A stretch of DNA of 64,000 nt from Mucilaginibacter polytrichastri. GTDB taxonomy: Bacteria; Bacteroidota; Bacteroidia; Sphingobacteriales; Sphingobacteriaceae. Below are positions 36,577 through 40,590 of this stretch, piece by piece. The notes beneath the pieces were generated by a model. The model did no database searches and was not told where the DNA came from. It saw nothing but the letters and a program-made list of their open reading frames with translations. Location: positions 419,105 through 483,104 of the forward strand of contig NZ_MPPL01000001.1 of assembly GCF_001911425.1 (NCBI RefSeq). The letters are read 5' to 3'. The translations under genes were made by a program, and so were the position numbers. Position 1 is the stretch's first letter; every line of letters begins with the position of its first letter.

Positions 36577-38445
36577 GTGGCAGTGGATAATTTTATAGTT
36601 TCGGCCCGTAAATACCGCCCGGCTACTTTCGAAACCGTTGTAGGTCAGCAACATGTGACTAATACATTAAAAAACGCGATCAAAAGTAATCAGCTGGCGC
36701 AGGCATTTTTATTCTGCGGGCCACGTGGGGTAGGTAAAACCACATGTGCGCGTATATTGGCAAAAACCATCAATTGTACCAACCTGCAGCCAAACGGCGA
36801 GGCATGTGGTACCTGCGATTCGTGCCGTGCATTTCAAAACGGAAATTCTTTTAACGTACATGAGCTCGATGCGGCTTCAAACAACTCGGTTGATGATATC
36901 CGTAACCTGATAGACCAGGTGCGCATACCGCCGCAAGCAGGCCGTTATAAAGTGTATATTATAGATGAGGTGCACATGCTGTCTCAAGCGGCTTTTAACG
37001 CCTTTCTGAAAACATTGGAAGAACCGCCTAACTACGCCATATTTATCCTGGCTACTACAGAGAAGCACAAAATATTGCCCACTATTTTATCGCGTTGCCA
37101 GATCTTTGATTTTAACCGCATCCGGGTAGATGATATGTCTGCTCACCTGGCATCTATCGCCCAAAAAGAAAGCATTGCTTATGAGGACGACGGACTGCAC
37201 ATTATAGCCCAAAAGGCCGATGGTGGTTTGCGAGATGCCTTATCCATGTTCGATCAGATTGTGAGCTTCTCCGGGGGGAACGTAACCTATAAAACGGTAA
37301 TCGATAACCTTAACATCCTGGATTATGATTACTATTTCAGCCTTACAGATGGCCTGATGAACGAGGAAACGGCAAAGACGCTATTGATCTTTGATGAAAT
37401 CTTATCTAAAGGGTTCGATGGCAGTCACTTTATCAATGGCTTATCCAATCACTTCCGCAACCTGCTGGTAGGTAAAGACGCTGCCACGCTAAAACTGCTA
37501 GAGGTTAGTGATGGTGTTCGTCAGCGTTATTTGCAGCAATCGCAGCAGGCAACAGGCTCATTCCTGTTATCGGCCTTAAATATTGCCAACCAGTGCGAAA
37601 TTAATTACCGGCTCAGTAAAAATCAACGTTTACAAGTGGAGCTGGCGCTGCTCAAAATGTGCCATCTTACTTCGGCCTTTAATTTGGCCGCCTCACCACT
37701 GCAAAATACGCCGGCTAATGATAGCCAGCTAAAAAAAAAACCTGATACCACAGCAATAACGCCTCCGGCGCAGGCTTATGATGCCCCCAAAACGGCTACA
37801 GTAGTTAATGAAGCACCGGCGGGCTACCAATCGCCGCAGGCAGAAACGCCTAAGCAGCAGCCTGTTACTGCATCGCCGCAAATTACGCCGCCGGTTACGG
37901 CTATACCTAAAATTACGGTGGATATTGCCGTTGCTCCAAGTACGCCAACTGCACCTTCAGAGAAGCCGAAGATTGTGATGCCAACCCGGTCGTCAATGAT
38001 ACCCTCATTAAACGCTGTTAGTACCGCCACTGCCGAAATGGTTGATGAAGATGACCCTTATATTAAGGGTACAGACCAGCAGCCTTTTACCACGGATGCT
38101 TTTTTGCAAAAATGGAGTGAGTATACCGTTAGGCTGAAAAATGAGAGTAAGATGGGCCTGTTTACCATTTTTAGTGCAACAGCGCCGGTTATGGTTAGGC
38201 CTAATGAGTTTGAGGTTATAGTAAGCAATAAAGCACAGGAAAATGATTTCAGGGATGAAAAACCTGAACTGATGAACTTTTTGCGCACCGAACTAAGAAA
38301 CTTTAGTATTGAGGTAAAAGCGCGTATTGAAGAAATAACCACAGCGAGACGACCCTATACCGATATTGAAAAATTTCAGCATATGGCAGCCAAGAACCCA
38401 CAATTAACAGAGCTGTATAAGCGTTTTAATCTCGATCTTAGTTAA
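36577..38445 (+). CDS. dnaX: DNA polymerase III subunit gamma/tau
   Basis: Clamp-loader ATPase of the replisome. FIVSARKYRPATF start, Walker A GPRGVGKT at residues 48-55, zinc-binding Cys in CTNLQPNGEACGTCDSC, Walker B IIDEVHML and sensor 1 ATTEKHK. Domain III ends near residue 375, followed by a Pro/Thr-rich linker (about 385-500) and a tau-like C-terminal domain. No ATG is available; GTG 36577 or 36583 starts it. The linker begins at a run of ten A (37731-37740) that could give a short gamma form. Confidence 0.96.
   Translation: MAVDNFIVSARKYRPATFETVVGQQHVTNTLKNAIKSNQLAQAFLFCGPRGVGKTTCARILAKTINCTNLQPNGEACGTCDSCRAFQNGNSFNVHELDAASNNSVDDIRNLIDQVRIPPQAGRYKVYIIDEVHMLSQAAFNAFLKTLEEPPNYAIFILATTEKHKILPTILSRCQIFDFNRIRVDDMSAHLASIAQKESIAYEDDGLHIIAQKADGGLRDALSMFDQIVSFSGGNVTYKTVIDNLNILDYDYYFSLTDGLMNEETAKTLLIFDEILSKGFDGSHFINGLSNHFRNLLVGKDAATLKLLEVSDGVRQRYLQQSQQATGSFLLSALNIANQCEINYRLSKNQRLQVELALLKMCHLTSAFNLAASPLQNTPANDSQLKKKPDTTAITPPAQAYDAPKTATVVNEAPAGYQSPQAETPKQQPVTASPQITPPVTAIPKITVDIAVAPSTPTAPSEKPKIVMPTRSSMIPSLNAVSTATAEMVDEDDPYIKGTDQQPFTTDAFLQKWSEYTVRLKNESKMGLFTIFSATAPVMVRPNEFEVIVSNKAQENDFRDEKPELMNFLRTELRNFSIEVKARIEEITTARRPYTDIEKFQHMAAKNPQLTELYKRFNLDLS
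37731..37740 (+). promoter_or_regulatory. A10 slippage/frameshift site in dnaX
   Basis: The codons CTA AAA AAA AAA CCT (residues 385-389) contain ten consecutive A. A -1 ribosomal shift or one extra A reads ACC TGA and stops at once, giving a 389-residue product. Loss of one A stops after AAC CTG ATA CCA CAG CAA. The position is just after domain III, where gamma ends in E. coli and Thermus. Confidence 0.55.
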
Positions 38446-39285: not shown

Positions 39286-39990
39286 CTACGGTGTTGTAAC
39301 CGCAACCGGCAATATTTTACCATTGAAAAACTTATGGCCGGTAAGTGCGAAATCTGCAATGTATTTACCCATCTCGAAAGCCATAACCGGCGATTCATAA
39401 CCGGGGAAGGCCTGCTCCAGCATCTCGGTTTGTGCCGAGCCTAGTGCCAGGCAGTTTACGCTAATCTTTTGTTCCTGAAGTTCCTGGGCAAGTGTTTCGG
39501 TAAAGTTATGTAATGCCGCCTTGCTGGCCGAGTAGGCGGACAGGCCTTTGAATTTTGCACTGCCTTGCACACCACCCATGCTGCCAATATTTACGATGTG
39601 CGAACCTGCGCTCATCATTGGTAACAGTGCCTGGGTAATACGTACATGAGCCAAAAAGTTGGTTTGCATCATTTCTACAAAGTCCAGCTCATCGGTTTCC
39701 ATAAATGGCTTATTAACCAATATGCCGGCATTGTTAATCAGTATATCAATATGGCCATCAAAACGGGCGTTAATAAATTGTTTCAGGTCGTTATAATCGT
39801 CATGCACCAGGTCAAAGGCTACCGGGTAAATGGTACAGCCCGGGTTAAGGCTGTTGGCAATTTCCTGCAGGCGGCTCAATTTGTTTTGTGATCGTGCCAG
39901 TACAATTATTTTGTAATGGTCTTTTAATATAAGTTCGAGTGCGGCCTCAAAGCCTACGCCGCTGCTTGCGCCGGTAATAATAATATTCAT
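39286..39990 (-). CDS. Short-chain dehydrogenase/reductase
   Basis: Classical SDR: cofactor loop TGASSGVGFEAAL (residues 6-18), NNAG at about 86-89, and the active site Ser (NIGSMGG) with YSASK. The Arg/Ser pattern after the second strand (LARSQNKL) suggests NADP(H). Substrate unknown. Its start overlaps the PIN-domain gene stop by four bases, so the two are translationally linked, which is odd for unrelated functions. Confidence 0.92.
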   Translation of the reverse strand: MNIIITGASSGVGFEAALELILKDHYKIIVLARSQNKLSRLQEIANSLNPGCTIYPVAFDLVHDDYNDLKQFINARFDGHIDILINNAGILVNKPFMETDELDFVEMMQTNFLAHVRITQALLPMMSAGSHIVNIGSMGGVQGSAKFKGLSAYSASKAALHNFTETLAQELQEQKISVNCLALGSAQTEMLEQAFPGYESPVMAFEMGKYIADFALTGHKFFNGKILPVAVTTP

Positions 39991-40349
39991 GTAGAAAATG
40001 GATTGATCAGTTTGACTTTACCATCAAGTTGTTTAAAGTCAGCTATGTTGTTGGTTAATAGGGGAAGTCCCTCTACTACTGACGTAGCATAAATAATAGC
40101 ATCAGGTAGTTTGATTTTATATTTTGTTCGAAGTCTGATAGTTTCTTCTGCTATATGGTCAGAAAGTGAAATTATTTTTAATTCATTACATATGGCAGAT
40201 AACAAGCTATGCTCTTCCGGGTCTTTGAATCCAAAACCTAAGGCTTCAATTTTAGTAACGATTGATATGGAAGAGTTTGTAGTAATGATGTCTTGAGGAT
40301 TAATGATATATTTTGAAAGATAAATAAGAATATTGGTATCAAAAATCAC
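39987..40349 (-). CDS. PIN-domain toxin (VapC-like ribonuclease)
   Basis: 120 residues with a full set of PIN acidic residues: Asp4 (MIFDTNILIYL), Glu35 (TKIEALGF), Asp83 (KLPDAIIYATS) and Asp104 (NNIADF). PIN toxins are Mg-dependent RNases that cut tRNA or rRNA. The gene overlaps the small upstream ORF by 11 bases, the usual antitoxin-toxin arrangement, and overlaps the SDR start by four. Confidence 0.88.
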   Translation of the reverse strand: MIFDTNILIYLSKYIINPQDIITTNSSISIVTKIEALGFGFKDPEEHSLLSAICNELKIISLSDHIAEETIRLRTKYKIKLPDAIIYATSVVEGLPLLTNNIADFKQLDGKVKLINPFST

Positions 40350-40590
40350 GATCCCATTCCTTTCTTATCTGTCTTTGCCATTCAGCGGGGTCTTCTATGT
40401 CTTTAAAAAGATTTTTACCTTTTGCAGCATCAAGGATTCTTTTTATGCGCATGTATGGGGCTTCTGGTTCTTGTATCAGGTCATTTGTTAAATGTTCTTC
40501 TTCAATACTTTTAACAAAAGTAACTTCGCCAAGCAGCTTTTTTAGTGCTTCTGCCTGCTCATCCTCAACCGTTACTCTTAGCGTTACCAT
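40339..40590 (-). CDS. Antitoxin partner of the PIN toxin
   Basis: 83 residues: a short N-terminal strand/helix (LRVTVEDEQAEALKKLLGEV), an acidic middle and a charged C-terminal helix (DPAEWQRQIRKEWDRDF), which typically wraps into the toxin. No firm DNA-binding motif is seen. Assigned from size, composition and its 11-base overlap with the PIN gene. It starts just downstream of the hydroxylase gene (24 bp). Confidence 0.75.
   Translation of the reverse strand: MVTLRVTVEDEQAEALKKLLGEVTFVKSIEEEHLTNDLIQEPEAPYMRIKRILDAAKGKNLFKDIEDPAEWQRQIRKEWDRDF

Follow-up and report, generated by a model that had tools for sequence, protein, structure and literature searches.

The dnaX gene of Mucilaginibacter polytrichastri carries ten A's in a row between the part shared by gamma and tau and the part that belongs to tau only. 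The comparisons described below suggest that RNA polymerase slips on this run with the help of a predicted RNA hairpin on its 5' side, so that both gamma and tau are obtained from one gene. We give this reading, which is drawn from sequence, a probability of about 0.8.

The A10 run of dnaX and its conservation

The window (the whole stretch of 64,000 nucleotides that was analysed) contains a dnaX open reading frame that matches NF011531 with an E value of 2.9e-259. Residues 8-362 match TIGR02397, and Pfam recognizes DNA_pol3_delta2, an ATPase lid and gamma3, with the clamp-loader domains ending at residue 368. The features referred to in the text are the following.

36577..38445, + strand: dnaX, zero-frame product tau of 622 aa, GTG start according to the ORF tool (ORF list, NF011531, TIGR02397, Pfam).
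37306..37680, + strand: DnaX domain III (residues 244-368), the last domain common to gamma and tau (Pfam PF12169).
37710..37729, + strand: predicted RNA hairpin with 7 pairs, one C.A mismatch, a 4-nt loop and a 1-nt spacer to the run (folding).
37731..37740, + strand: A10, putative slippage run, codons 385-388 of 622 (sequence, conservation among relatives).
37741..38442, + strand: tau-only part (linker and C-terminal region), missing from the short product (ORF; tau C-terminus profile in relatives).
37743..37745, + strand: TGA reached with one extra A or a -1 shift, 2 nt past the run; gamma-like product of 389 aa.
37757..37759, + strand: TAA reached with one A lost, 16 nt past the run; six new codons, product of 393 aa.

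The preliminary description had placed an A10 tract at these positions and codons of dnaX, and had derived from it a 389-residue product ending at TGA after an extra A or a -1 shift and a TAA after six codons when one A is lost; the sequence bears out each of these points. It had also set the tract past domain III, and the run indeed starts 17 residues beyond the Pfam match to that domain, in the context CTA AAA AAA AAA CCT GAT. Two marks of the Thermus type of dnaX are thus present in the window: at the gamma/tau boundary it has an A run at least about 9 long, and both other frames stop early. Since tau is encoded in the zero frame, the two-ORF (reversed) arrangement is absent from the window.

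Runs of this length are rare in the genome. Over 5.84 Mb and both strands there are 3608 A runs of at least 7, 751 of at least 8, 109 of at least 9 and 8 of at least 10 (numbers computed from overlapping counts; the 109 runs were checked independently). Of the eight longest, three are in sense within long open frames (a lipoprotein-like frame and those of dnaX and mfd), and a fourth falls in an open frame, shortly before an ATG. Elsewhere within the gene, the longest A run was 9 in 5 and 10 in none of 187 dnaX genes with zero-frame tau (family and named sets). With only eight such runs in 5.84 Mb and no second A10 in these 187 genes, the A10 of dnaX is more than expected by chance. By anticodon pattern match, one tRNA-Lys (CTT) was found in the genome.

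Two side observations may be recorded here. The A10 of the lipoprotein-like frame (C1:1689966-1689975, minus strand, L003/L418) lies in sense after a lipobox-like Cys and is possibly length-variable. At 39987-40590 of the window, on the minus strand, there are two small overlapping ORFs which, by the look of their translations, we take to be a PIN-type toxin and its antitoxin.

To follow the run among relatives, dnaX was read in four sets of genomes. For the family, 151 genomes were searched (4 gave weak partial matches and 1 none), and the other 146 yielded 147 dnaX loci. All 147 carry a run of 9-13 A's, the lengths 9, 10, 11, 12 and 13 occurring in 6, 131, 9, 0 and 1 loci. For the genus, 118 of 120 genomes searched gave a match and 49 loci were read, 47 of them from further genomes; the run was at least 9 in all 49 and exactly 10 in 41. 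The preliminary description had proposed an alignment of close relatives, in which an interrupted run would speak against slippage; a run shorter than 9 was found in 0 of the 147 family loci and 0 of the 49 genus loci. Among named Bacteroidota, represented by the best 80 of 593 confirmed candidate loci and headed by those of Mucilaginibacter, 64 carry a run of at least 9. The phylum sample comprised 109 genomes, of which 39 remained unread; 70 loci were read and 4 repeats dropped, and 45 of the resulting 66 loci carry a run of at least 9.

When all 293 loci were compared, a length of 10 was found in 207 of the 256 with at least 9, a length of 8 in none, and 256 of the 259 loci with a run of at least 7 had at least 9. 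The run is missing from 37 loci. These are 13 Bacteroidales and 3 unplaced loci of the named set, together with one same-class locus (A7) and 20 loci from outside the class in the phylum sample. At these loci gamma may have been lost or may be made otherwise. The genes with no A run in the linker include several from Bacteroidales of the gut type and from deep branches in the phylum sample (L088, L090, L096, L118, L144, L154, L155 and others).

Each of the three codon phases is represented among the runs. A FastTree tree of the 293 DnaX cores requires at least 17 changes for run presence, 37 for codon phase and 22 for the frame of tau. Three phases, at least 37 phase changes and at least 22 flips of the tau frame indicate that what is conserved is the run of nucleotides and not a fixed peptide. 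In addition, in 13 run-bearing genes with a core GC of at least 55%, the run is whole though AAA makes up only 28% of the Lys codons of the core.

A second gene was used as a comparison. The gene which, from its sequence, we take to be mfd has an A10 in the same genome (C1:5027168-5027177, L267) at a conserved KTTKKKVKD site. In the 30 mfd loci read (L314-L343) out of 61 family genomes searched, A9-A10 was present in 26 and interrupted in 4, and no hairpin was detected 5' of the run in these 30 loci (mean -0.93; 1/30 at <=-4). The mfd run is thus kept with neither the hairpin nor the other signs seen at dnaX, and conservation of a run alone proves nothing.

The predicted RNA hairpin 5' of the run

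In the window, the 24 nt ending at 37730 fold with -9.1 kcal/mol (z -2.78), giving a predicted stem-loop that adjoins the 5' side of the motif in the manner of the Roseiflexus type. For 202 non-redundant genes the 24 nt before the run average -5.32 kcal/mol, with a z of -1.26 against dinucleotide shuffles. The same fold taken 24, 48, 72, 96 and 120 nt further upstream gives -2.02, -1.69, -2.46, -1.50 and -1.86 kcal/mol (z 0.06 to -0.31, n=202), and the value falls to -2.07 when the folded stretch ends 6 nt before the run. The last paired base lies 0-4 nt from the run in 145 of the 175 genes whose 36-nt fold is <=-3. Neither other A runs nor dnaX genes lacking the run shared this property: A6-8 runs in the same genes average -1.99 (n=83), the 37 dnaX genes with no run average -2.64, and 29 other A>=9 runs of the genome average -1.40, with 3 of 29 at <=-4. 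Among the 30 A>=9 runs read out of 109, the hairpin of dnaX is the strongest.

The stem sequences vary widely between and within genera, and several comparisons were made of the fold itself. Synonymous recoding of the same peptide gave -3.33 against the real -5.32, the real sequence being lower in 153 of 202 genes (p 1e-18; p-values ignore shared ancestry). At three of four control positions recoding had no effect, and at one the effect was small (-2.48 vs -1.99, p 0.002). When the substitutions of relatives were placed at random, the fold was -4.56 against -7.38 observed (126 of 144 pairs), and the same procedure in a control window gave no effect (21 pairs).

Covariation was also analysed. 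Two genus sub-alignments, made of 17 and 23 of 53 aligned genus sequences and picked by stem geometry, which favours structure, have 89.9% and 87.0% of their cells paired. Their double-change cells number 5 vs 1.5 and 15 vs 5.8 in shuffles, and 0 of 500 shuffles reach either value; how many pairs show a double change (1 and 3) and how many pair types occur did not exceed shuffles in these sub-alignments. Pooled over all clades (202 genes), 9 cells had z>4 vs 7 in the control window. In pairwise ungapped comparison double changes were modestly in excess (0.437 vs 0.33-0.40), and for all changed cells there was no excess (0.297 vs 0.28-0.34). Taken together, the folding, the synonymous-recoding and the within-genus covariation tests support the predicted hairpin before the dnaX run.

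The hairpin is unevenly distributed. It reaches an MFE of <=-4 in 128 of 202 genes and is weak or missing in about a third; by group, 0/10 genes of genus g14, 2/7 of Chitinophagales, 0/2 of Saprospirales and 6/13 of Bacteroidales reach this value. Standard genes have the stronger hairpin (z -1.34, 109/169), genes of the reversed arrangement the weaker one (z -0.75, 16/29).

The 3' side of the run was inspected as well. An E. coli-type downstream stem-loop or Rfam element at the dnaX run was rejected on the folding controls and the Rfam search: positions +1 to +50 past the run of the window have a z of -0.33, 199 genes showed no excess of downstream structure over two control windows, and Rfam returned no frameshift element, with only two irrelevant matches at E<=5.

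Reading frames, stops and reversed genes

The frame in which tau is encoded was assigned in the 293 loci. Tau is in the zero frame in 210, an extra A (or a -1 shift) is needed in 40 and one A less in 2, while 37 have no run; of the remaining loci, 3 run off the end of their contig and 1 contains two long frames. In the thinned zero-frame set, the frame entered with one extra A stops within 30 nt in 168 of 169 genes (elsewhere in the same genes, 57%), and the frame entered with one A less does so in 161 of 169 (elsewhere, 52%). Early stops in both frames are a prediction of two-way slippage, whereas -1 ribosomal shifting needs only one.

The reversed arrangement, with the short form encoded directly by the template and tau readable only after a change of frame, was found in 42 of 293 loci. 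Forty of these 42 genes were long enough to be compared with a profile of the C-terminal 150 residues of tau. The predicted shifted frame matched in 40 of 40, and none of the other 80 frames of these genes did. Reversed genes make up 5 of 5 loci of genus g29 and, in family f15, which is likely Chlorobiaceae, 6 of the 9 loci that were read. In genus g11 (L069-L073, L075) the zero frame stops right after A10, at TAG in five loci and at TAA in L072, and tau is open one frame over in all five loci that are long enough; annotation may therefore call such a gene truncated. The run itself is A10 in most reversed loci, and it is the bases past it that differ. Three reversed cases (L049, L060, L063) are length variants each found in a single genome, and when they are left out 39 reversed loci and at least 19 flips of the tau frame remain.

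One of these three was set aside. In genome G051 both dnaX (L049, A9) and mfd (C1:993099-993997) are split at their A runs. The splitting of mfd as well suggests homopolymer sequencing errors in this genome, and L049 was rejected as a reversed gene of the window's genus because it is likely such an error.

Probable transcriptional slippage and its alternatives

The geometry of the site favours RNA polymerase over the ribosome, a choice that the preliminary description had left open: a predicted 5' hairpin abuts the run, there is no extra downstream structure, and both shifted frames have stops. The hybrid within RNA polymerase spans 9-10 bp, and slippage in a Roseiflexus insertion sequence is stimulated by a stem-loop that forms in the nascent RNA beside the hybrid; in Thermus, slippage on the A9 of dnaX yields gamma and tau at about 1:1 (PMC5009743, from the portion of this review available). 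At the dnaX run of the window, the ten A's would fill the RNA-DNA hybrid, and the rA:dT pairs could re-pair in another register. The predicted hairpin would form at the RNA exit like that of an intrinsic terminator and would favour realignment over release. The mRNAs with more or fewer A's would then give a short gamma-like protein and the rest tau, each mRNA being translated in the normal way by ribosomes. Because slippage shifts either way, the template may encode tau, as here, or gamma, as in reversed genes, and still give both. We infer the slippage itself, the requirement for the stem and the gamma:tau ratio from these comparisons. The preliminary description had suggested that slippage makes gamma in a Bacteroidota dnaX, and this suggestion gains strong support from the comparison of sequences: most of the phylum sample retains the run, both shifted frames soon meet a stop, and in 42 of 293 loci tau can be made only by a change of frame.

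Could the run simply be a by-product of AT-rich genes encoding a lysine-rich linker, and play no part in slippage? The mfd of the family keeps A9-A10 at a conserved KKK site in 26 of 30 loci with no hairpin, as such a by-product might. Nevertheless, the mfd run is interrupted in 4 of the 30 loci read and that of dnaX in 0 of 147, and the occurrence of all three phases, the retention in GC-rich genes, the stops in both frames, the 42 reversed loci and the hairpin are all at odds with a by-product; we regard it as very improbable. We consider least probable of all that the run is a contingency (phase-variation) tract switching between gamma and tau at the DNA level, or that its length changes are sequencing errors. 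The single-genome variants L049, L060 and L063, and the split mfd in the genome of L049, would be in keeping with it, but 131 of the 147 family loci and 41 of the 49 genus loci have exactly ten A's, and most reversed loci keep A10 and vary past the run, for example by the TAG or TAA directly after it in g11. Moreover, tau should be needed in every cell, which does not agree with switching.

A more serious competitor, although we judge it unlikely, is that the ribosome makes gamma by a programmed -1 frameshift on the A run, as it does in E. coli dnaX. In its favour, the run contains the -1 slippery heptamer A_AAA_AAA, translation in the -1 frame ends at once, and 40 of the 42 reversed loci have tau in that frame. 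There is also a mild excess of SD-like motifs ahead of the run, present in 19% of 190 genes against 8-12% in controls; of 111 motif hits, 70 end 1-4 nt short of it. Such a heptamer needs only seven A's, yet nearly all loci with at least seven have at least nine (256/259), and the +1 frame also stops early (161/169), with no signal of downstream structure (p 0.79 and 0.11). The 5' hairpin abuts the run at a place that would be covered by a ribosome positioned there. In addition, -1 shifting is known to be attenuated by upstream hairpins, a 70S system included (PMC6321510, as far as the accessible text goes). The available part of PMC5009743 mentions E. coli-like signals for one Chlorobium, as unpublished data, and gives a following G as the most shift-prone E. 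coli context; here only 32 of 212 genes have a G at that place. The hairpin and run in Roseiflexus-like geometry, the covering of the stem by the ribosome and the attenuation by upstream hairpins are the reasons why hairpin-assisted transcriptional slippage was chosen.

The E. coli dnaX signal consists of A_AAA_AAG with an upstream SD and a downstream stem-loop. The likeness to the present case lies in the gene, the break between shared and tau parts and the gamma/tau outcome; the difference lies in the longer run, the predicted upstream hairpin and the lack of a downstream signal. The following comparisons hold for the parts of the cited sources that were available. Thermus thermophilus dnaX, like the gene described here, has an A run late in dnaX, tau in the zero frame and near stops in both other frames (PMC5009743, PMC1088944). 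Its gamma comes from slipped mRNAs of A9, whereas slippage here is what the sequence suggests, and our gene has A10, a predicted 5' hairpin, a spread over most of another phylum's sample and many reversed relatives, Thermus being compared by run, frames and stops only. Two-ORF dnaX genes were collected by GeneTack (PMC3711429): 17 genes from 12 genera, 12 with poly-A and nine of them with 10 A's, for which transcriptional realignment was proposed. In these genes, from Chlorobi and others, the zero frame does not extend past the A run and tau depends on a shift of frame, as in our reversed genes. That set holds reversed genes only (its nine 10-A genes may include Bacteroidota), whereas here reversed and standard genes interchange round one conserved run with a 5' hairpin. 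The IS630 element of Roseiflexus has a stem-loop of the nascent RNA 5' adjacent to its motif, with the terminator-like geometry predicted here; its motif is T5C5 in a mobile element and loses one C, whereas here A9-A11 lies in a housekeeping gene and gain or loss of an A can end translation (PMC5009743). In Blochmannia a frameshift in an A/T tract of dnaX is likewise thought to be corrected by transcriptional slippage, but this tract lies within the tau part, past the gamma site, and stems from genome decay in an AT-rich endosymbiont (PMC3017870).

Slippage in Thermus dnaX, two-ORF dnaX, the Blochmannia tract frameshift and hairpin-stimulated slippage in one insertion sequence were therefore known already. 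A literature search, which took in few subscription papers, found no title or abstract on this dnaX element in Bacteroidota. A phylum-wide run with zero-frame tau, a 5' hairpin and repeated swaps of the templated product were not met in that literature, to the extent that its text was available. The 5' hairpin, the phylum-wide spread and the reversed genes also go beyond what the preliminary description had noticed.

A wider proposal, towards which we lean with less assurance, is that Bacteroidota and Chlorobi share an ancient dnaX cassette, a terminator-like hairpin with A9-A11, which would turn polymerase pausing into slippage rather than release and so set gamma:tau, the templated protein having been swapped about twenty times while the cassette was kept. 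If true, hairpin-stimulated slippage on the chromosome would be added to the one insertion-sequence example of the review (PMC5009743, in its available part). Hundreds of natural variants would be at hand to probe why RNA polymerase slips rather than terminates. Automatic annotation may label reversed dnaX genes as frameshifted or truncated. The importance of the short form gamma has long been disputed (PMC5009743, same part); a slippage cassette that has outlasted about twenty swaps of the templated frame and is retained by most of the phylum sample is an argument that both forms are needed in the cell.
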